A stretch of DNA of 64,000 nucleotides from Anaerolineaceae bacterium (lineage in GTDB: Bacteria > Chloroflexota > Anaerolineae > Aggregatilineales > Phototrophicaceae): positions 1 through 64,000 of the forward strand of contig JAPOVC010000018.1 of the NCBI GenBank assembly GCA_026708325.1, written 5' to 3'. Below are positions 11,806-61,342 of this stretch, piece after piece. The translations under genes and the position numbers were made by a program. The stretch's first letter is position 1, and each line of letters opens with the position of its first letter. The notes under the pieces are model-generated. The model saw only the letters and a list, made by a program, of their open reading frames with translations, ran no database searches and was not told the DNA's origin.

Positions 11806-12205
11806 AGCGTCCGGTCCGCCCCTTCCCCTGCACCGAATGACGTACGGGCGACATACCATGTCGCCCGCGGGCGCTGCGGGTTACGGCGGGCGATTTGATA
11901 AATCGCCCCTGCAACGAGCGTGCGTTTTGCGGATACGGGCAATCTGATGCATCGTCCCGGCGGGATGCGTCGGGCCGGCCGGGCGACTTGATAAGTCGTC
12001 CCAACGGGATGCTTCGAGCTTGCGCTCTCGCTACCCCTGCAAAGGTTTCGGATTGTTGTACGGGCGACATATCATGTCGCCCGCGGGCACTGAGGCCCAC
12101 GCTATTCCGCGGGATGCTTCGAGCTTACGCTCTCGCTATCCCACGGGATGCTTCGGGCTGCGGCCCTCGCTACAATCGCGCAGCATTCACAGGGAAGGCG
12201 GCGCC
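11806..12205. repeat. Spacer with clustered palindromic repeats (families A and B)
   Basis: Family A hairpins (GGGCGA-arm/TCGCCC-arm, 21 bp) lie at 11846-11866, 11888-11908, 11981-12001 and 12062-12082. Family B units (GGGATGCTTCGAGCTTGCGC type, ~31 bp) lie at 12006-12036, 12111-12142 and 12145-12172. No gene is seen. The next gene's ribosome site AGGGAAGG is at the right end. Confidence 0.85.
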
Positions 12206-36763: not shown

Positions 36764-38596
36764 TCACCCCTGTGAAGTCGTAACCGTGCCTGGCGGGCCG
36801 CCAATGCGGTCAACCGTACTGACCACGACGCCGTTCAGGTCGTCCTGCAGGGTGACGTGATGCACCTTGCCCTCGCTGTTGGGGCCCTTCGCGAAGGTGA
36901 TGTTGCCATCATCTTCGACGAATACGGCAACGCGGCCGTCCGACGTGCTCTTGACCTGGTTGCCATTCCCGGTGTTGTCGACCTCCGTCTGCGTCACGCG
37001 CAGTACGAAAGTGCCCGTGCTGTCGGCCTCGATGCGGTACACGTCGATGGTGGTCACCGACTGCCCGGCGACGCGGCACAGCTTGCCAATGGCGCCCAGA
37101 TTCTGGAAGCAGTCATCCGCTTCCGGCGTGGCGGTGATCGCCGGTGTGGCCGTCGGCGCGGCCGTGGGCACCGGCGCGGACTGCCCCGGGAATTCGATCA
37201 GGCGAAATGCCTCGAAAGTATCGCCGGCCTGCGCCTGCGCCAGTTCCTGCCTCTCCGCCACCTGGGCGATGTAGGGCGGGCCGAACTGCAGGCCGCAGGG
37301 CCCCGTGCTGCTGTCGCTAATGATCCAGAACTTGTCCGCCGGCGCGTTGTTCTCGAAAGAGATGCAGCCGTTCAAATGGATGGTGGCGCCATCGCGGAAG
37401 TTCACCAGGGCGGCATCGCCCCCCTGATTGCCGCGGAAGATGGCGTCGGTGAAGCTGGCCACGCTGGTGCGGTATTCGGACCAGGCGAAAAGGACGCTGG
37501 CGGAATAGCGCGGCTCGACGTTGACATTGTTCTCGAAGAGCGCGCGGGTGAAGCTGGCCTCGCCCATGTTCAGAATCGCCTGGCTGGGCGCGTTGCGCAT
37601 GGCGACGTCGATGCCATTCAAACTGCCGAAATTGACCGTGCGGATGCCATCCAGGGTCAGATTTTCCATGGTCAGCGAGGCATTGGCCGCCGTCACAATA
37701 TTGATGCCGGGGATCGCGCCGCGGATGAAGTGGCCGTCACCCGTGATGGAGATTTCCACGCCGTCCGAGAGCAGCCACTGGCCGAAGCGCTCGCAATCGC
37801 CCTTGAGGGTGTAGGTGCCGGACTCGTCCAGAATGCCGCTGCCGGGAATGCCACAGGCCAGGGTCTCGGGGGCGGGCGCCGCGGCCTGACCCTCGTTGCC
37901 CACCTGGCCGCTGCAGGGGCCGCTGGAATCCGGGCTCCAGGAGCCGACCACGTTGTAGGGGATATTGCCGGAAAAACTCAGGCAGCCACTGGCCGCGAAG
38001 GCGGTTGCGCCATCGCGGATCACCACCGCCGCACCGCCAAACAGGTTGTCCCGGAAGACGACGTCCTCAATGCTGACGGAGGCGCCGCTGGCGACGTTCA
38101 GGGCGCTGCCCTTGCCGTCAACGTCCGCGCCTCTGCTGGTGTTGGTCAGAAAGAGCACGTCATTCAGGGTTACCTGCGCGCCGGATTCGGCCTCCAGGGC
38201 GGGCCCGCCCTGGCTGCGGGTGAAGGTCACCGCCGTCGCCGTCAACGTAGCGCTGGTGTTGACCAGCGAGCCGCGCTCCATGTTCAGGCCATCGACGGTC
38301 AGTTGCGACAGGTGAAGCGTGCTGCCGTCCAGACCGGAGAAAATGGCGCTGCCGTCCACGGGGCCGGAAATGCTGTGGCCGTTGCCGTTAATCGTGATGA
38401 TCGCGTCCGCGGCGACTTCAAGCTGGCCGTCCTGTACGCAGTCTTCCGTGAGCGTGTAGGTCACGGTCTCCGAGAACACACCCGCGGCCGGCAGACCGCA
38501 GGAAGCCGCCAACAGAACGTCCTGCACCAGCGCCGGACTGCCGCCGGCCAACAGGATGCAGGCCAGTAGCGCAAGCATTCCTCGCTTCAGGTTCAC
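36764..38596 (-). CDS. Secreted beta-helix protein with C-terminal 'LGAI' domain
   Basis: 610 residues from a GTG at 38596 with AAAGGA upstream. A signal peptide (about 1-30) is followed by two beta-helix-like segments. Each opens with a CG(L/I)P..G....YTL..(D/G)C module and ITI.G(N/D)GH.I.G, then repeated ASF/ATF..F..N turns like polymorphic outer-membrane or right-handed beta-helix proteins. A Pro/Thr/Ala linker (about 460-490) leads to a ~100-residue C-terminal domain: CFQNLGAIGKLC, FVLRVTQTEVD, DGRVAVFVEDDGNI, GPNSEGKVHHVTL and GVVVSTVD. That domain recurs in three other secreted proteins of this cluster. Probably a surface or wall-associated protein; function unknown. Confidence 0.75.
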   Translation of the reverse strand: MNLKRGMLALLACILLAGGSPALVQDVLLAASCGLPAAGVFSETVTYTLTEDCVQDGQLEVAADAIITINGNGHSISGPVDGSAIFSGLDGSTLHLSQLTVDGLNMERGSLVNTSATLTATAVTFTRSQGGPALEAESGAQVTLNDVLFLTNTSRGADVDGKGSALNVASGASVSIEDVVFRDNLFGGAAVVIRDGATAFAASGCLSFSGNIPYNVVGSWSPDSSGPCSGQVGNEGQAAAPAPETLACGIPGSGILDESGTYTLKGDCERFGQWLLSDGVEISITGDGHFIRGAIPGINIVTAANASLTMENLTLDGIRTVNFGSLNGIDVAMRNAPSQAILNMGEASFTRALFENNVNVEPRYSASVLFAWSEYRTSVASFTDAIFRGNQGGDAALVNFRDGATIHLNGCISFENNAPADKFWIISDSSTGPCGLQFGPPYIAQVAERQELAQAQAGDTFEAFRLIEFPGQSAPVPTAAPTATPAITATPEADDCFQNLGAIGKLCRVAGQSVTTIDVYRIEADSTGTFVLRVTQTEVDNTGNGNQVKSTSDGRVAVFVEDDGNITFAKGPNSEGKVHHVTLQDDLNGVVVSTVDRIGGPPGTVTTSQG

Positions 38597-38823
38597 AGGT
38601 CATCCTTTCACCCATGCCCGGTGTACGCGATGGACGATGCTGCAATCGTCCTCGTTGGGCTCACACTGGTGAGCACAAGTGTACTCAGTATTTTACTATT
38701 CGCCAACTATTCAGGAATAACTTCCTGTAGTAGCGTACCAGATACAAATATCTTACATCATGGAGCGTCCCCTTGCCTGCAGCGTGGCCCGGCCAGGTGG
38801 CTTCCCACCCAGGCGACGGCGGC

Positions 38824-39927
38824 TCAGTTGCCTGTCGGGGTCTCGTCGTCCGCCGCCTCCGCCGCATTCGCCTCGCGGATGACCAAAGTCTGGCCGACGC
38901 GGAGCCGGCGACCGCCAGGCGGCAGCTCGTTGCGTTCCATGAGGGTCTCCGGCTCGATGTCGTAGGCGTGGGCGATGAGGTCGAGAGTTTGACCCGCCTG
39001 CACGACGTGCAGGATCGGGCTGTCATCAACGCACTCGGCGGGCACTTCCCTGCCGCGGGTTTCGGGCCGCGTGACGCCAGGGATGACCAGTTCCTGCCCG
39101 GGATGCAACAGATTTCCCCTGTCGGCCAACTGGTTGCGGATGGTCAGCAACTCCCGCTTCACGTCAAAGGCCTGGGCGATCCTGTAGAGTGAGTCCCCCG
39201 GCCGGACGACGTAGACCACCGGGCCGTAGAACGCGCAGCGCCCGGGTTGTTCCGCTTCCTCCTCCTCCGGCGCCGCAGGAATCAGCAGTTCCACGCCGAC
39301 CGGCAACAGGCTGCCAGACAGATCGTTGTGCGCAACCAGCTCCTGCAACCCGACGCCGTAGGCCAGCGCGATCGCCAGCAGCGTCTGGCCAGGTTGCACG
39401 ACGTGGATGATGCTGCCGTCCTCGCGGGCGGGTTGCCGCGCGACGCGCCTTGCGGAGTGAGACGGGACGGACCTGGCGCCGCCGCTCCCGTCCCCTTCCG
39501 GCGCGACCGGGTCGGCCGGGATGTCTGGCGCTTCGGCGATGCTGTCGTAGGTGGCGATGACGGCGCCGCCCAGGTGTTGTTCGAAAAGGACGTGATGGAC
39601 CTTGCCCTCGTCCGTGGGGCCCATGGAAACGCGGACGTTGCCATCTGCCTGAAGGTAAAGGGCGACGCGGCCATCCGCCGTGGCCTGGACCAGGCTTCCC
39701 CTCCCTGCGGCCGCCACCCTGGTCTGCGTCACCCGCAATAGCAGCCTGCCTTCCTCCCCTGGCGCGAGCCCGCGGACCTCAATCGCCAGTTTCGGCTCGT
39801 AATGACGGCAAATCAGGCCGATGGCGCCCAGGCGCTGGAAACAGGACGATCTCGCCTGGGCGGGCGCGGCGGCCGGCAGGACCAGCAGGCAGGCGTAGAG
39901 GCAGGCGATGCCTGACTTCAGGGACAT
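38824..39927 (-). CDS. Secreted 'LGAI'-domain protein with three LysM repeats
   Basis: 367 residues from the ATG at 39927, chosen because it begins a clear signal peptide (residues 1-~26, ending AQA); a start further upstream adds an Arg-rich stretch. The shared domain is N-terminal here: CFQRLGAIGLIC, LLLRVTQTRV, DGRVALYLQADGNV, MGPTDEGKVHHVLF and GAVIATYDSI. Three LysM repeats follow, each with HVVQPGQTL / VVRPGDSL / HVVQAGQTL, I...Y.V/.F.V and an N-terminal asparagine (HND, IRN, RNE), ending LLIPA, LVIPG and LVIRE. LysM binds N-acetylglucosamine-containing glycans, so attachment to peptidoglycan or another polysaccharide is likely. Confidence 0.85.
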   Translation of the reverse strand: MSLKSGIACLYACLLVLPAAAPAQARSSCFQRLGAIGLICRHYEPKLAIEVRGLAPGEEGRLLLRVTQTRVAAAGRGSLVQATADGRVALYLQADGNVRVSMGPTDEGKVHHVLFEQHLGGAVIATYDSIAEAPDIPADPVAPEGDGSGGARSVPSHSARRVARQPAREDGSIIHVVQPGQTLLAIALAYGVGLQELVAHNDLSGSLLPVGVELLIPAAPEEEEAEQPGRCAFYGPVVYVVRPGDSLYRIAQAFDVKRELLTIRNQLADRGNLLHPGQELVIPGVTRPETRGREVPAECVDDSPILHVVQAGQTLDLIAHAYDIEPETLMERNELPPGGRRLRVGQTLVIREANAAEAADDETPTGN

Positions 39928-39996
39928 CACGGGCGACGATCGTCCGCGCCGCCATACACGGGTCCACACCGGTCCGGGGCCCCGCCGTCACGCATA

Positions 39997-41292
39997 TCAG
40001 GACTCCCCGGCACCGGCTTCAGAGTCTTCTGCTGCGGAGGGCAGGGCCTCGCGGATCACCAGCCCCTGGCCGGGCTGCAATGCAACGCCGTCATCCGGCA
40101 ACCGGTTGCCCTCGATGATGGCCAGCATATCCACCGCGTAGGCCATGGCGATGGCCTCGAGCGTGTCGCCGGAGCGCACAAAGTGGATCACCGGGCCGAT
40201 GTCGGCGCAGTACGCCGGCAGTTCGGTCGCCACCCCGTCCAGGGTCCAGCGCTCCGGGATGATCAGGCCTTGACCGACCGACAACCGCCGGCCCAGGTCA
40301 GGCAGGCCGTTGCGTATGGCCAGTGTCGTCGGGTTCAGGTCATACGCGCGCGCGATTCCGACAATGTTTTCTCCCTGCCCGGCGACGTGCGCGACCGCCT
40401 CGTATCGGGCGCATTGTGCTGCCCTGTCGGCCCGGATGAGCAGCTCCTGCCCGACGTGGATCAGACCGCGATTGGCGATCGCGTTGCGTTCGATGATCTC
40501 CTGCAGGGTGACGTCGTAGGCGCGGGCGATGGCGAAGAGCGTGTGACCCGGCTGCACCACGTGAACGATGGAACCGTCCATCTGCGCGGGTTGAGGGATG
40601 ACGGCGGCGCTGCGGCGGGGACGGGTCTGTTCTCCGGGCGGGCCGTCATAGGTGACGGCGGAAGCGATGATGCGACCGGATAGCGTGTGTTCGAGGGTGA
40701 CGTGGTGCACCTTGCCTTCCTGGTCCGGGCCCATGGAAAGGGTGATGTGGCCATCGTGCTCGACGCGCATGGCGATGCGACCGTCATCGGAGCTGGCGAT
40801 GTGTTGGCCGGGCGCGACGGCGTCCACCTCCCTCTGTGTGACGCGCAGGAGGTAACGACTCCGCTCGAAATGCCCGGTCCCCCAGATCTCGTGCGCGCGT
40901 TCCGGTGCGGCGACGAGGCAGATGGAGGCGATGGCGCCCAGCATGCGCTCGCAGCTGTTGTCGCCGATCACCTGCCCCGCGATGTAATGGATGACGCCGC
41001 TGCTCCGGTCAATGCGGAGGCCGGCCGGGGTCAAGGTGGTCACCATGCCATCGCCAATGGCGATCTGAAACGAGTATCCGTTGTGATGGATGGTGACGTG
41101 GGCGCCCTTGTCGACCACCAGGGATTCCCATCGCTCGCAATGGGAAGTGAGGTTGTAACTGGTCGACTGGACGATGGCCCCGGTCAGGGGCAGGCCGCAG
41201 GCCGTTGGCAGCGGGTTTTCCTGCGCCAGAAGCGGTGTCGCCAACAACAGACAGAACAGCATCAGCAGTATCGTCATTCTTCCGGTCGGCAT
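39997..41292 (-). CDS. Secreted 'LGAI'-domain protein with three LysM repeats
   Basis: 431 residues from the ATG at 41292, eight bases after GAGGAG; a GTG nine bases earlier overlaps that site. Signal peptide at 1-~24. Next is the CGLPLTG...YNLTSHCERW / VTIHHNGYSF module (about 30-75), also present twice in 36764-38596. Then the shared domain (about 114-217: CERMLGAIASIC, YLLRVTQREVDAV, DGRIAMRVEHDGHI, MGPDQEGKVHHVTL, GRIIASAVTYDG). Three LysM repeats (about 239-415) complete it. The middle one is divergent (AHVAGQGENIVGIARAYDL). Same strand, 69 bp before the previous protein's gene; the pair may be co-transcribed. Confidence 0.85.
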   Translation of the reverse strand: MPTGRMTILLMLFCLLLATPLLAQENPLPTACGLPLTGAIVQSTSYNLTSHCERWESLVVDKGAHVTIHHNGYSFQIAIGDGMVTTLTPAGLRIDRSSGVIHYIAGQVIGDNSCERMLGAIASICLVAAPERAHEIWGTGHFERSRYLLRVTQREVDAVAPGQHIASSDDGRIAMRVEHDGHITLSMGPDQEGKVHHVTLEHTLSGRIIASAVTYDGPPGEQTRPRRSAAVIPQPAQMDGSIVHVVQPGHTLFAIARAYDVTLQEIIERNAIANRGLIHVGQELLIRADRAAQCARYEAVAHVAGQGENIVGIARAYDLNPTTLAIRNGLPDLGRRLSVGQGLIIPERWTLDGVATELPAYCADIGPVIHFVRSGDTLEAIAMAYAVDMLAIIEGNRLPDDGVALQPGQGLVIREALPSAAEDSEAGAGES

Positions 41293-41301
41293 CGCTTTCA
41301 C

Positions 41302-41573
41302 TCCTCACACAAACGCAGCGTCAATGCAGGGGTAGCGAGAGCGCCAGCTCGAAGCATCCCGTTGGGACGATTAATCAGATCGCCCGCAGGGCACATGGCC
41401 ATGGACCCGCAACGGGGGCAGGGGCAGGAATCCCTGAAGTAACGGGATGTGATACTTCTGAGGCAGTACGGCTTCAATGCAAATGCTTTTAATGCTTGCG
41501 CAACTCTGCGCCGCATTTTAGCAGGTTATAGCGCCCAGGAATTAACGGATATCACACAATGTGAGAACAGGGG
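41302..41573. repeat. Spacer with a family B repeat and partial family A
   Basis: A family B unit in reverse orientation at 41330-41360 (GGGTAGCGAGAGCGCCAGCT...CATCCC) is followed by a degenerate family A arm near 41365-41385. The remainder, more AT-rich (41440-41560), shows no gene. Confidence 0.6.
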
Positions 41574-42230
41574 TCAGTTGCGTTTGGCCAGCGCCCGCGC
41601 CGCCGCGAAGTTCGTCTCCGGATCGGGGTCATCCAGCGCCGCGCGCAGGGTTGGCAGCGCCGCGTCGCCCAGCTGTAGCAATGCTGTCGCCGCCGCGTCG
41701 CGCACCCTGGTGTCGGGGTCGCGCAGGGCGACGCCGAGGGCCTCAACCGCCTCCGTCGCGCCCAACCGTCCAAGCGCCTGGGCGGCGAAACGCCGTTGCG
41801 CGGCATCGACGTCCTTCAGCGCTGCGGCCAGGGCCCGCAGGGCGGCCGCGTCGCGATGCCCGATCTTGCCAAGGGCCATGGCCGCCGCGCGTCGTACGGC
41901 CGGCCGGCCGTCGCCCAGCGCTTCCGTCAGGCCCTCCACCGCCGCCGCGCCGATGTGGATCAACGCGGAAGTCACCTGCACGCGCACGTACATGTCCTCG
42001 TCGCGCAGGCCCTGCAGCAGGGAGGACAGCGAGGCGGGGTCCGCGAACTGCACCAGGGTGCGCGCCGCCTGGTAGCGCACGGCAAGGTCTACGTCGAAGC
42101 GCAGCCGTTCGCCGACCTCCGGCAGCGCTGCCCGCAGCGAGAGCGACTGCACCATGTGCAGGCCGCCGACACGGGTTTGCGCGTCCCCGTCGCGCAGGGC
42201 CGCGCGCGCCTTGTCGAGGGCGTCCGCCAT
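41574..42230 (-). CDS. HEAT-repeat (PBS-lyase-like) protein
   Basis: 218 residues from the ATG at 42230, eight bases after GGGAGG; the frame extends upstream but that part is out of register with the alignment. Repeats of ~30 residues: VRYQAARTLVQFADPASLSSLLQGL, VRVQVTSALIHIGAAAVEGLTEAL, VRRAAAMALGKIGHRDAAALRAL, RRFAAQALGRLGATEAVEALGVAL and VRDAAATALLQLGDAALPTLRAAL. Such alpha-solenoids act as protein-binding scaffolds. It is last in a four-gene minus-strand operon with an unknown protein, OsmC and another unknown protein, separated by 4-14 bp. Confidence 0.85.
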   Translation of the reverse strand: MADALDKARAALRDGDAQTRVGGLHMVQSLSLRAALPEVGERLRFDVDLAVRYQAARTLVQFADPASLSSLLQGLRDEDMYVRVQVTSALIHIGAAAVEGLTEALGDGRPAVRRAAAMALGKIGHRDAAALRALAAALKDVDAAQRRFAAQALGRLGATEAVEALGVALRDPDTRVRDAAATALLQLGDAALPTLRAALDDPDPETNFAAARALAKRN

Positions 42231-42244
42231 GGCCTGTTCCTCCC

Positions 42245-42820
42245 TCAATTCCGCGCCCGTGGCCGGCGATACAACCAGGGGAAGTCCGCGTGGGGGTAAA
42301 GGGTCTCCAGCTGCGCGTCCCACAGGAAAGCGCAGGGCTCGTCGGCGATGGCCAGCAGCAGGGCATCGATCCGCCGCGCCTTCGCCTCCAGGGCGTCGTC
42401 CTGGTGCTGCGCGCGCGCCATCACGCGACGCAACTCCTCGACGATGCTGCGCCGCAGCAGTTCCGGCTGCCAGTTGCGGGCGGCCTGGGCCGGCTCGCCC
42501 ACCATGTCCTGCAGGTAGCGCCCCATGGTATCCAGGCGCGAATGCGCCTCCCGCTCGACTTTGCGCCGGTAATGCAGCGGCCACTCTTCACGGACGGCGT
42601 CGTGCTGCGCCTGCAAACCCGCGACCCTGGCGCCGGCCAGTTGCCCCAGGCGCCGCAGCCGCAATTCCAGCGCGCCCACGGTCAGGGCCGGCATGCGCTG
42701 AAAGCTGAAGCCGCCACCGACACTGCCATACAGCGAATCGCCGCGCAGGTAGTTTTCCAGACCGGCGACCATGGCTTCTGCCTCGCGCAGGTCCCTTTCC
42801 AGGTCGTATTGTCTTGTCAT
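42245..42820 (-). CDS. Unknown helical protein in the OsmC operon
   Basis: 191 residues from the ATG at 42820. Mostly helical and charged, with LRRLGQLAGARVAGLQAQHDAVREEWPLHYRRKVEREAHSRL and a C-terminal FLWDAQLETLYPHADFPWLYRRP. No family recognised. It lies 10 bp after the osmC-like gene and 14 bp before the HEAT-repeat gene, so it belongs to the operon. Its ribosome site is weak, in keeping with translational coupling. Confidence 0.7.
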   Translation of the reverse strand: MTRQYDLERDLREAEAMVAGLENYLRGDSLYGSVGGGFSFQRMPALTVGALELRLRRLGQLAGARVAGLQAQHDAVREEWPLHYRRKVEREAHSRLDTMGRYLQDMVGEPAQAARNWQPELLRRSIVEELRRVMARAQHQDDALEAKARRIDALLLAIADEPCAFLWDAQLETLYPHADFPWLYRRPRARN

Positions 42821-42830
42821 GCCGGACGCG

Positions 42831-43259
42831 TCAGGGGTCCTTGTCAGCGTCGACGAAAAAGGCCGGGCTTTCGACGATGCGGTGCACCGGGCAGCGCCCG
42901 GCGATTTCGAGGATGCGACGGCGCTGCGATTCATCCAGCGGCCCCTGCAGGGTGATCTGCTGGCTGACCTCGTGCACAAAGGACGAGTCGCCACCGTAGC
43001 CGGGGTAGTCCGCGCCGCGCCGCCGCTCGATATCAAGGGTGATTTCCACGCCTTCCAGCGGCCAGCCCTTGCGTTGGGCGTAGAGGCGGGCGGTAATCGC
43101 CATGCAGGAACCCAGCGCGCCGAGCAATTGCTTCACCGGGTCGGCGGCCGTGTCGCTGCCGCCGGCGTCCAGCGGCTCGTCGACGTGGTAGACGTGAGCG
43201 TCGGCGACGACCGTGGTGCGCAGGCCCTCTGCACCGAGGCGAATGACAGTGCTGCCCAT
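42831..43259 (-). CDS. OsmC-family peroxiredoxin-like protein
   Basis: 142 residues from the ATG at 43259. OsmC-fold markers: two cysteines in LLGALGSCMAITARLYAQRKGWPLEGVEITLDIERR and GRCPVHRIVE, with HEVSQQITLQGPLDESQRRRILEIA between. The pair are the redox cysteines that reduce organic hydroperoxides in OsmC/Ohr proteins. It sits in an operon with two unknown proteins and a HEAT-repeat protein. Confidence 0.88.
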   Translation of the reverse strand: MGSTVIRLGAEGLRTTVVADAHVYHVDEPLDAGGSDTAADPVKQLLGALGSCMAITARLYAQRKGWPLEGVEITLDIERRRGADYPGYGGDSSFVHEVSQQITLQGPLDESQRRRILEIAGRCPVHRIVESPAFFVDADKDP

Positions 43260-43263
43260 GGGC

Positions 43264-43665
43264 TCAGCCCGCCCGCAGCAGGCGCAGGCCCTGGAAGTGG
43301 GGGTCGCCCTGGATCTCGCGCCAGCGGCCCTCGCCGCCGTCGCAGTGCCACTCAACGACGTGCATGCCCTGCGGGTCATCATAGGAGAGGGTGGGGCGCA
43401 GCATCAGAATCTGGCGCATCACGCCGATCAGTTCGCGGCTTTCCTGCTGCATGCGCAGACGGAACCAGGCGCCTGGCTGCCACTCGAAGACCACCCGGCT
43501 GCCGCCCTGGTTGCCTTCCATGCGCACCGGGTCGCTGACCTGCACGCAGCGCATGAAAAGGGTCTGCAGCCGGTTCTTCCACAGCGTGTGGTTGACGCGT
43601 TCCTCAATGTAGTAGGGTCGCGCTTCGGGTGTGCTGTAAAACCAGGTGCGCGAACTGGTCGCCAT
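43264..43665 (-). CDS. Unknown protein, first gene of the OsmC operon
   Basis: 133 residues from the ATG at 43665. MATSSRTWFYSTPEARPYYIEERVNHTLWKNRLQTLF starts it. A beta-rich centre (RVVFEWQPGAWFRLRMQQESRELIGVMRQILML) and a C-terminal MHVVEWHCDGGEGRWREIQGDPHFQGL follow. It contains many aromatic residues and no signal peptide. No known family recognised. It begins the operon, 4 bp before osmC. Confidence 0.7.
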   Translation of the reverse strand: MATSSRTWFYSTPEARPYYIEERVNHTLWKNRLQTLFMRCVQVSDPVRMEGNQGGSRVVFEWQPGAWFRLRMQQESRELIGVMRQILMLRPTLSYDDPQGMHVVEWHCDGGEGRWREIQGDPHFQGLRLLRAG

Positions 43666-43852
43666 GCCCTTGTTCTCCGCGTGTTGCCTGTGCCGCGGGG
43701 CAGTGTACACGAAAGGCGCGCGCCAGGCCAGCGCGGCGCGCTGCTGGCCCGCCCGGCCGCGGGTTTTCCCCCAAAGCGCTTTTTTGCCAGGCGGGGCCTG
43801 CGCCCTTCCGGGAGAGACGCAGGGACCGTGAGACAGGCGCTGACGACGCGGC

Positions 43853-45115
43853 TCAGGGGGCGTCGCGGATGGTTAGTTCCTGACCGGGGCGGAGCAGGTC
43901 GCCGTCGCCGAGGTCATTGCGCTCGATGAGGCTTTGAATGGGGACGTTATAGGTGAGGGAGATGAGGGAGAGGGTTTCGCCATAATGGACGACGTGCACG
44001 AGGGAGCCATCCGGGCGCGGGTCCTGGGGGGACAGCGTCGGCAGCTGGCGGGTAGAGGGGCTGGCGCCCTCGCGGATGACCAGTTCCTGGCCGGGGCGGA
44101 GCAGGGCGCCGTCGCCGAGGTCATTGCGCTCGATGAGGCTTTGAATGGGGACGTTATAGGTGAGGGAGATGAGGGAGAGGGTTTCGCCATAATGGACGAC
44201 GTGCACGAGGGAGCCATCCGGGCGCGGGTCCTGGGGGGACAGCGTCGGCAGCTGGCGGGTAGAGGGGCTGGCGCCCTCGCGGATGACCAGTTCCTGGCCG
44301 GGGCGGAGCAGGGCGCCGTCGCCGAGGTCATTGCGCTCGATGAGGCTTTGAATGGGGACGTTATAGGTGAGGGAGATGAGGGAGAGGGTCTCGCCGTAAC
44401 GGACGACGTGCAGGATGGCGTCAGGCGGCATCGTTTCCTGCCTGGCGGGGAACCGGGCGTAGGTATCCCAGGTGCCGAGGACGGGGCCGTGCACGCTGCC
44501 ACGCAGGTTGACGTTGTGAATCTTGCCATCGGGGCCTGGGCCCATGGACACTTCGATTTCCCGGCTTTCCTTCACGCACACGGTGACGTATTCGTCAGCA
44601 GTCCCGGCAACGCGGCCTTCGGGCTGGACGGCATCGACCTGCGACTGCGATACGCGCAACAGGAAGACCCCCTGACTTTCACGCGTGACGGCCCAGATGT
44701 CGAGCACGGGCGTAGACTGGTCCTCCATGCGGCACATGAGGCCGATGGCGCCCAGACGCTGGAAACAGCCGGGAGGCATGGCTGAGGGCGGGGAGCGCAT
44801 CGAGCTTCTTGCCGACTCATCCGACGGGGTGCAGCAGAAACAATCGTTGTTGTCGCCCTGTTGCCGCAGCTTGTAGCGCGCTGCCGCTACCGGGTTGGCG
44901 CCTGACGACAGAACCAAAAACAGAAGGCAACAAAACAGTAGCGCAAGTCTCTTCTTGTCCGTTCTGCTGCGATCAGCATTCGGCAGCGTCCGGTTGCGAG
45001 GAATTGTCCGGCCTTTCGTGCCCGGGGTTGGCAGCGACGACGCGAATTTTTTTGTCAACCAGAGTCCGGAACGCCCGGCACTTGTCCCCGACCGGACGCG
45101 CGTGACGACAGTCAT
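43853..45115 (-). CDS. Secreted 'LGAI'-domain protein with three near-identical LysM repeats
   Basis: 420 residues from the ATG at 45115. The N-terminal ~55 residues before the hydrophobic segment (KKRLALLFCCLLFLVLSSG) are unusual for a signal peptide, so the real start may be later. The shared domain is present: CFQRLGAIGLMC, VFLLRVSQSQVDAV, GPGPDGKIHNVNL and GPVLGTWDTY, although its DGR.A strand reads ADEYVTVCV. The C-terminal half is three LysM repeats (HVVxYGETLSLISLTYNVPI, IERNDLGDG, LLRPGQELVIRE). They are almost identical in DNA with a 207-bp period, joined by a GASPSTRQLPTLSPQDPRP linker. Fourth member of the secreted cluster. Confidence 0.83.
   Translation of the reverse strand: MTVVTRVRSGTSAGRSGLWLTKKFASSLPTPGTKGRTIPRNRTLPNADRSRTDKKRLALLFCCLLFLVLSSGANPVAAARYKLRQQGDNNDCFCCTPSDESARSSMRSPPSAMPPGCFQRLGAIGLMCRMEDQSTPVLDIWAVTRESQGVFLLRVSQSQVDAVQPEGRVAGTADEYVTVCVKESREIEVSMGPGPDGKIHNVNLRGSVHGPVLGTWDTYARFPARQETMPPDAILHVVRYGETLSLISLTYNVPIQSLIERNDLGDGALLRPGQELVIREGASPSTRQLPTLSPQDPRPDGSLVHVVHYGETLSLISLTYNVPIQSLIERNDLGDGALLRPGQELVIREGASPSTRQLPTLSPQDPRPDGSLVHVVHYGETLSLISLTYNVPIQSLIERNDLGDGDLLRPGQELTIRDAP
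43868..44417. repeat. 207-bp tandem repeat encoding LysM units
   Basis: The same sequence restarts at 43921, 44128 and 44335, exactly 207 bp (69 codons) apart, with only a few differences. The last copy is partial, covering about 80 bp. Confidence 0.92.
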
Positions 45116-45714
45116 CAGAGACCGTGGCGGACGACGGGCCTTTTGCCCGTGTGGACCGGACGGAGGCCGACGGAGGTCGGCGAGTTGGGTTCAGGGAGGG
45201 CGGGGGAATGCGGGAACAGGCAGGTAAAGGGGGAGAAGGGCGCGACGCGATGCTGCAAGGGTGGCCACCTCCTGGCTGCCAGGATTTTCGATTGTCAACC
45301 GAGCCTTTGCATACAAAACGATAACATCTAGCGCAGAATTGTCAAATAATACACATATAACCTGATGATACCAGGCAATGCAAAAGGCTCTATGGTGTAA
45401 CAATGAAGCGCTTTACGTTAGCTTTCATGTGAAACGCGAGTGGATTCCGTAAGACCCTGTCAGACAGGCAGCGGGCGACATGGTATGTCGCCCGTACAAC
45501 CAACCGGATTCCCTGTACGGGTAGCGAGGGCGCAAGCTTGAAGCATCCCGCAGGGGCAGCAAGAGCGGAAGCTCGAAGCATCCCACAGGGACGATTTATC
45601 AATTCGCCCGCCCAACCATTGGCAAGCGCCGTGGCAGGCGCCGGGATTTCTGACAGGGGAGACCTCAGGTCTCCCCCTTCCCTGAACGAGGATTCAGATG
45701 GGGAATTGCAACGC
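45116..45714. other. 599-bp intergenic region with repeats and an AT-rich part
   Basis: No gene recognised. 45290-45420 is clearly AT-rich and may hold the LysM gene's promoter. Family A at 45473-45493 (inner stem CAT/ATG), a family B unit in reverse orientation at 45519-45549, a shorter one near 45558-45587 and a degenerate family A at 45590-45612 are present. Confidence 0.65.
45318..45345 (-). promoter_or_regulatory. Possible sigma-70-type promoter upstream of the LysM gene
   Basis: On the minus strand TTGACA (45345-45340) and TATCGT (45323-45318) are separated by 16 bp, inside the AT-rich stretch about 200 bp before the LysM gene start. Only four of six -10 bases match. Confidence 0.3.
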
Positions 45715-49732: not shown

Positions 49733-49947
49733 CGTCGGAACGCACATCGACTGCGACGTGCGCGGGCGACATGATTTGTCGCCCCTGCGGGATGCTTCGG
49801 GTTGGGGCCCTCGCTACCCGTACAACTATCCCCACTCCACGCAGAGGTAGCGAGAGCGCAAGCTCGAAGCATCCCGCAGGGACGGTTGATCAAATCGTCC
49901 GCAGGCCTTAAATCCCGCCGCCGGGCCGGAGCGCCCTGCATTCACGC
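49733..49947. repeat. Spacer with family A and B repeats
   Basis: Family A at 49764-49784, family B at 49789-49819 and 49846-49875 (opposite orientations), and a degenerate family A arm pair near 49878-49900. Confidence 0.75.
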
Positions 49948-57787: not shown

Positions 57788-58205
57788 GCTGTATTCCTGT
57801 GCAAGTCGAACACCCGGTTGTCTGCGGACACAGGTATCAGGCGCAGGCCGGTGTTTCTGCCTGCGCCATTATAGTCCCGCCACCGTCGCGCTTGCCAGCG
57901 GGGACCTTCACCTCACGCGGCCAGCCGCGCCGCGGGTTCTGCGGGATGCTTCGAGCTTGCGCTCTCGCTACCCGTACACCAATTGCAGATTGCTGGACGG
58001 GCGACATACCATGTTGACCGCCTGTGAAATTCCGACGGCGCGGGCGATGGGGTAAGGCTGCGGGACGTTCGCCCGGGTTCTCGCCCTCACCCCAACCCCT
58101 GTCCCACGTCCGACTATTGCCGTAGAGGCGACGAGGCGGGCGACATATCATGTCGCCCGCGAGTAAATCATGTCGCCCGCCAGTACACCATGTCGCCCGC
58201 GAGTT
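57788..58205. repeat. Spacer with family B, C and A repeats
   Basis: Family B at 57943-57973, a broken family A near 57999-58020, half a family C near 58082-58105 and family A at 58138-58158 followed by two half copies to 58202. It separates the SBP genes from the ATPase gene by 418 bp. Confidence 0.75.
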
Positions 58206-60929: not shown

Positions 60930-61342
60930 GAAACCCTCCCGATAAATGCTGTTGCAGGTCAGACGGAAATGGCCATCAAACCAGTACATTAGTGTACCGG
61001 CAATCGCCGCTTAAGCGTCACCATCTGGAATTAATGATTGCTCGTCTGTCAGCGCCATGACGCAGGGGCGACATACCGACGGGGCGGGCGATCTGTCAGA
61101 TCGCCCCTGCCGATGCCAGGGTATACGGGCGACATACCATGCCGCCCTCCATATATGTGGGCGCCGGAGTGATGCGGGCGACTTGATAAGTCGCCCGTAC
61201 AGTGGCGGCGCGTTTTGTGGATGCGGGCGGTCCGACAGATCGCCCCTGCCATTTGCAGCCCCTGCGGGATGCTTCGGGCTGGGGCCCTCGCGGCCCCTGC
61301 GGGATGCTTCGAGCTTGCGCTCTCGCTGCCGGGACCAGAAAC
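60930..61342. repeat. Spacer with family A and B repeats
   Basis: Family A at 61086-61106 (TCT/AGA inner stem), 61127-61147 (degenerate), 61176-61196 (CTT/AAG) and 61225-61245 (degenerate). Family B at 61266-61295 and 61301-61330. The copy 2 gene's promoter lies to the left but no clear -10/-35 is visible. Confidence 0.8.

Follow-up and report, generated by a model that had tools for sequence, protein, structure and literature searches.

The four exported proteins encoded by a gene cluster in the window (the whole stretch of 64,000 nucleotides analysed here) share a domain of about 110 residues, hereafter called LGAI, which is a real and previously unlabelled domain family as judged by the libraries used. 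With the W2 copy as the reference, identity is 44% for W1, 41% for W3 and 37% for W4, and the four-copy alignment contains 20 invariant columns, including the motifs C-x3-LGAI-x3-C and GP..(E/D)GK.H.V. A profile (A5) built only from distant relatives, those of the DGRIN branch discussed below, and without any LGAI member, recovered the window copies in a whole-genome search with E-values of 4.5e-14 (the W2 copy), 4.4e-12, 4.5e-9 and 7.6e-8. As this independent profile finds all four copies, the similarity between them is not due to chance. The genome (3.3 Mb) encodes nine LGAI copies in total, four in the window and five elsewhere; the search returned ten matches, with the C17 copy counted once though it was matched in two pieces.

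The four reading frames on the minus strand, as listed in the preliminary description, all exist, and the ends given there for two of them had to be revised: W2 extends to 39969 rather than 39927, and W3 to 41301 rather than 41292 (Table 1). The ATG codons at 39927 and 41292 are internal to W2 and W3, respectively, and both are possible as alternative starts. Each of the four proteins opens with a hydrophobic, signal peptide-like stretch, as read by eye.

Table 1. Coordinates of the LGAI proteins, their domains and associated repeats in the window.
Feature	Position	Strand	Length	Description
W1, exported protein	36764..38596	(-)	610 aa	two predicted right-handed beta-helices, disordered linker, C-terminal LGAI; without LysM
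W2, exported protein	38824..39969	(-)	381 aa	LGAI and 3 LysM
W3, exported protein	39997..41301	(-)	434 aa	CGLP stub, LGAI and 3 LysM
W4, exported protein	43853..45115	(-)	420 aa	LGAI and 3 nearly identical LysM
LGAI domain of W1	36767..37117	(-)		
LGAI domain of W2	39499..39849	(-)		
LGAI domain of W3	40603..40959	(-)		
LGAI domain of W4	44417..44773	(-)		
Three LysM repeats of W2	38878..39405	(-)		
Three LysM repeats of W3	40054..40563	(-)		
LysM units of W4	43868-43996, 44075-44203, 44282-44410	(-)		
Tandem repeat	43863..44412	(-)	207-bp unit, 2.7 copies	97% matches; encodes the three LysM units of W4
Dispersed GGGATGCTTCGAGCTNGCGCTCTNGC repeat	12006-12136, 41335-41360, 45524-45584, 49850-49875, 57943-57968, 61266-61326			

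The initial impression that the domain belongs to no named family has held up. Neither Pfam nor NCBIfam gave an above-cut-off match on the LGAI residues of W1-W4, the relatives scanned with Pfam were likewise without a named family on the domain, and a PDB sequence search (A1) yielded no match. The matches that the Pfam and NCBIfam searches did return were rejected as candidates, being LysM regions or sub-threshold noise. A phage origin was also rejected, as LGAI relatives are absent from the IMG/VR viral contigs.

The weak matches seen in related genomes belong to a second branch, whose signature is DGRIN...AVY...LYRLTTGEFQVN.GP..EGK. This DGRIN C-terminal domain of the Aggregatilineales, defined here, is homologous to LGAI across the domain, with a probability of 99 and an E-value of about 1e-18 in a profile-profile comparison of the two sets (hhalign). 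In contrast to DGRIN domains, members of the LGAI branch have a C-x3-LGAI-x2-(I/L/M)C hairpin, carry GKVHHV instead of GKxYVVIF and often possess a C-terminal LysM. In a tree of 58 domains, based on few columns and with many inner forks unresolved, an LGAI clade (27 rows) is set apart from the rest (31 rows) with a support of 96. On these comparisons, LGAI is one branch of a larger, order-wide family of DGRIN C-terminal domains, a relationship that the preliminary description had overlooked.

When the distribution of this family was assessed, the DGRIN profile matched at least 20 of 396 genomes in a sample of the class, all in the order of the window, and at least 2 of 400 genomes in a sample of the phylum, both of its family; among the matches listed for the two samples, none lies outside the order. 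The order to which all of the listed matches belong is, as we infer, the Aggregatilineales/SBR1031, its identity being derived from names and literature: a sponge Anaerolineae clade was placed in the order SBR1031 (PMC8941161), which was reassigned to the Aggregatilineales (PMC8067394). The LGAI form is narrower, as strong matches among 154 genomes of the order occur in three genera only, g1, g12 and g18 (the family of the window), and the other matches are few (E-values of 5e-7 to 5e-9). A same-genus metagenome-assembled genome, 277c_24, shares its name with the Petrosia ficiformis sponge specimen 277c (PMC8941161). Judging from such names of related genomes and from the literature, the bacterium of the window is probably sponge-associated.

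An AlphaFold2 model of the W1 LGAI domain, computed from 21 aligned sequences, is all-beta, with nine strands and one short helix (pLDDT 89.6, pTM 0.84). An unnamed, order-restricted secreted domain is now defined whose fold is predicted with confidence and whose boundaries are clear, so that it could be given a family entry. The two motif cysteines sit in adjacent strands of the model (residues 2-6 and 11-15). Both are present in 18 of the 25 domains scored, neither in five, and a single one in two, although in one of these (L010) the first cysteine falls just one residue beyond the scanned stretch. As the motif cysteines are gained or lost as a pair, a disulfide between them (C3-C14 in the numbering of the W1 domain) is likely. 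Structural comparisons of the LGAI model returned weak matches at best (Foldseek against the PDB, E 0.04; VIA, Z 5.0 over 52 residues), and a search of BFVD gave no match below 0.001. A likeness of half of the domain to a propeller-type meander was considered and treated as a common arrangement only. Since the domain has no close solved fold relative, no function can be transferred to it from known structures.

One reading of this fold takes the domain to be, in its own right, a carbohydrate-binding module for glycans, either the exopolysaccharide of the bacterium or the matrix of a host. The domain is all-beta and tethered next to LysM and beta-helices, and the carbohydrate degradation repertoires of sponge Anaerolineae are expanded (PMC6306507), but the lack of a match to a CBM family in Pfam, the weakness of the fold matches and the pattern of conservation, which concerns mostly glycines, a proline and charged turn residues rather than exposed aromatics, make us doubt this reading, possible as it is.

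A Pfam scan of the proteins agrees with the arrangement originally described, in which LGAI stands at the C-terminal end of W1 and precedes three LysM repeats in each of W2-W4. The LysM family (PF01476) scores 107.5 bits in W2, 99.7 in W3 and 108.5 in W4, in three stretches each and against a cut-off of 20.9; in W1 nothing, LysM included, scored above cut-off. The LGAI domain of W1 ends seven residues before the C-terminus, an extreme position that is not found in W2-W4, where the LysM repeats follow. Of the domain copies, 69 lie on open reading frames whose C-terminal side is not truncated; in 49 of these, no more than 40 residues follow the domain (in most, no more than 10), and the exceptions looked at have LysM after the domain. 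In proteins without LysM, the LGAI/DGRIN domain comes at the very end, after secreted partners of various kinds or with little else in the protein: the upstream partner is a set of thrombospondin type 3 repeats in L066 (Pfam) and otherwise assorted beta-rich stretches, and the open reading frames L060, L061 and L018 encode scarcely more than a signal peptide and the domain. A separate observation concerns L007:1450-2994, in which a metalloprotease-like segment (HEFWHMVHH, noted by eye) precedes a C-terminal LGAI domain and which is without any Pfam match.

The C-terminal domains of the type 9 secretion system (T9SS) are small beta domains that terminate exported proteins of various kinds, and by description the LGAI/DGRIN domain can be set beside them for its size, its far C-terminal position and the high variety of its N-terminal partners. 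By a T9SS-like logic, it could be a C-terminal sorting or surface-retention signal for an order-specific export or attachment machine, with LysM having taken over as the anchor in W2-W4. In contrast to sorting tags, which are usually found in far more copies, the LGAI/DGRIN domain is present in merely about 1-10 copies per genome; moreover, it is nearly alone in some proteins, it is internal in LysM forms such as W2-W4, and the residues at the extreme C-terminus are not conserved. Because of the low copy number and the near-stand-alone relatives, the role in sorting or assembly that had been suggested at first is unlikely.

The AlphaFold2 model of W1 (residues 28-610, pLDDT 77.7) shows a strong likeness to right-handed beta-helices over its first 405 residues (VIA Z 15-18 over approximately 160-310 residues), with matches to pectate lyases, phage tailspikes and the serine-rich-repeat (SRRP) adhesin of L. 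reuteri (5nxk, Z 15.4). Model residues 1-210 and 219-405 align separately, which suggests that W1 carries two beta-helices. In contrast to the known proteins of the pectate-lyase superfamily, W1 has no above-cut-off Pfam match and its predicted helices are joined to LGAI; for the adhesive-domain model Pectate_lyase_5 (PF20585), W1 gives no match, and the relative L043 gives an E-value of 4.4e-4 and 20.8 bits against a cut-off of 24.3. The beta-helices are joined to LGAI by a linker, residues 410-466 (about 57 residues), with a pLDDT under 50. This linker bears on the idea of an inert, ligand-free domain with a purely structural role as cap or spacer, for instance a C-terminal cap that stabilises an upstream beta-rich domain. 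Such a role would agree with the focus of conservation on turn motifs (DGR, GP..EGK) and with the position of the domain behind many different beta-rich partners, but as the predicted disordered linker separates them, LGAI would not cap the beta-helix of W1, and the domain also occurs almost alone. We therefore consider an inert cap very improbable.

The preliminary description regarded W1 as a protein in which LysM had been swapped for beta-helix segments, a view that the relatives contradict. The commonest architecture of the LGAI branch is beta-helix - LGAI - LysM, beta-helix, LGAI and a single LysM are found together in full-length relatives of W1, and the LGAI matches in genus g18 mostly lie within open reading frames of about 700-760 residues. 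As relatives of W1 have both beta-helix and LysM, the ancestor was of the beta-helix - LGAI - LysM type, and W1 has retained its two beta-helices but lost LysM. W3 retains a helix-cap stub of the 'CGLP..Y.L..C' module, seen by eye in the translation, and in W4 LysM was re-amplified through the 207-bp units.

Several features of the genome and of related bacteria bear on the attachment of these proteins. Among the products of the genome are four Mur-ligase middle domains and several penicillin-binding-protein transpeptidases; the bacterium thus makes peptidoglycan and offers LysM a murein target. With three LysM repeats in each of W2-W4, LysM as a wall anchor, already proposed from the first reading, is plausible. 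The LysM family binds GlcNAc-containing glycans (peptidoglycan, chitin), a putative activity for W2-W4 by analogy. LysM (CBM50) outnumbers every other CBM in sponge Chloroflexi and is restricted to the Anaerolineae and Caldilineae, which retain peptidoglycan genes (PMC6306507). Like other LysM surface proteins, W2-W4 carry repeats that score well above the Pfam cut-off; unlike them, the window proteins are without a recognisable hydrolase domain and have an unnamed beta domain as partner, and W1 is without LysM.

The reading that we favour, and for which we see the chances as evenly balanced, is that the LGAI proteins are non-covalently wall-attached, surface-binding (adhesin-like) secreted proteins in which LGAI is an accessory module that faces outward. 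The LysM repeats would hold W2, W3 and W4 to the bacterium's own peptidoglycan. LGAI, a small beta module that is probably stapled by a disulfide, would be displayed on the outside and serve as an accessory for binding or as a scaffold. The outer part of W1, and of proteins with the commonest architecture, would be a pair of right-handed beta-helices of a kind present in polysaccharide-binding proteins and adhesins; the beta-helix, where present, would be the binder and LysM the anchor. The binding target would probably be a glycan or a matrix outside the cell, perhaps that of the sponge, and the family would diversify through gene duplication, domain loss and repeat amplification. Wall attachment is not general to the family, as its deep members are without LysM and beta-helix. 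More tentatively, and with considerable reservation, LGAI/DGRIN might be a new beta-domain superfamily of one Chloroflexota order that serves as a standard surface-display module, the LGAI branch having been recruited with beta-helix and LysM into a fast-turnover family for sponge attachment. Little is known about cell-surface attachment in these abundant, uncultivated and probably sponge-associated Chloroflexota, and the LGAI proteins, should they prove to be wall-attached adhesins, would be candidates for the molecules through which these bacteria make contact.

The genes around the LGAI cluster encode a polyphosphate kinase, a HEAT-repeat protein, an OsmC-like protein and LexA, and the genes flanking it are collinear in at least one of two genomes of the same genus, with about 80-97% protein identity. 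Same-genus orthologs of the LGAI proteins are 80% (W1, partial), 70-75% (W2) and 63% (W3) identical, and W4 is absent from the syntenic location in both genomes. The copy of W2 in genome G001 contains an in-frame TAG, and in one G002 copy LGAI and LysM are not encoded in the same frame, for which an assembly error is possible. On this comparison, the LGAI genes appear to diverge, jump and decay in a birth-and-death manner while the flanking genes stay collinear; alternatively, weak constraint could cause their rapid divergence and decay. The two same-genus LGAI and LysM copies with a decayed appearance, one with the in-frame TAG and the other with the split frames, are located at L039:8932-9987 and L038:9770-11532, and assembly errors are possible in both.

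A dispersed repeat with the core GGGATGCTTCGAGCTNGCGCTCTNGC is present in nine copies in the window (0 expected) and in 34 copies in the genome at up to two mismatches. W3 and W4 each have a copy directly upstream, and the LGAI gene on C21 also has one next to it; the repeat could be REP-like and promote duplication.
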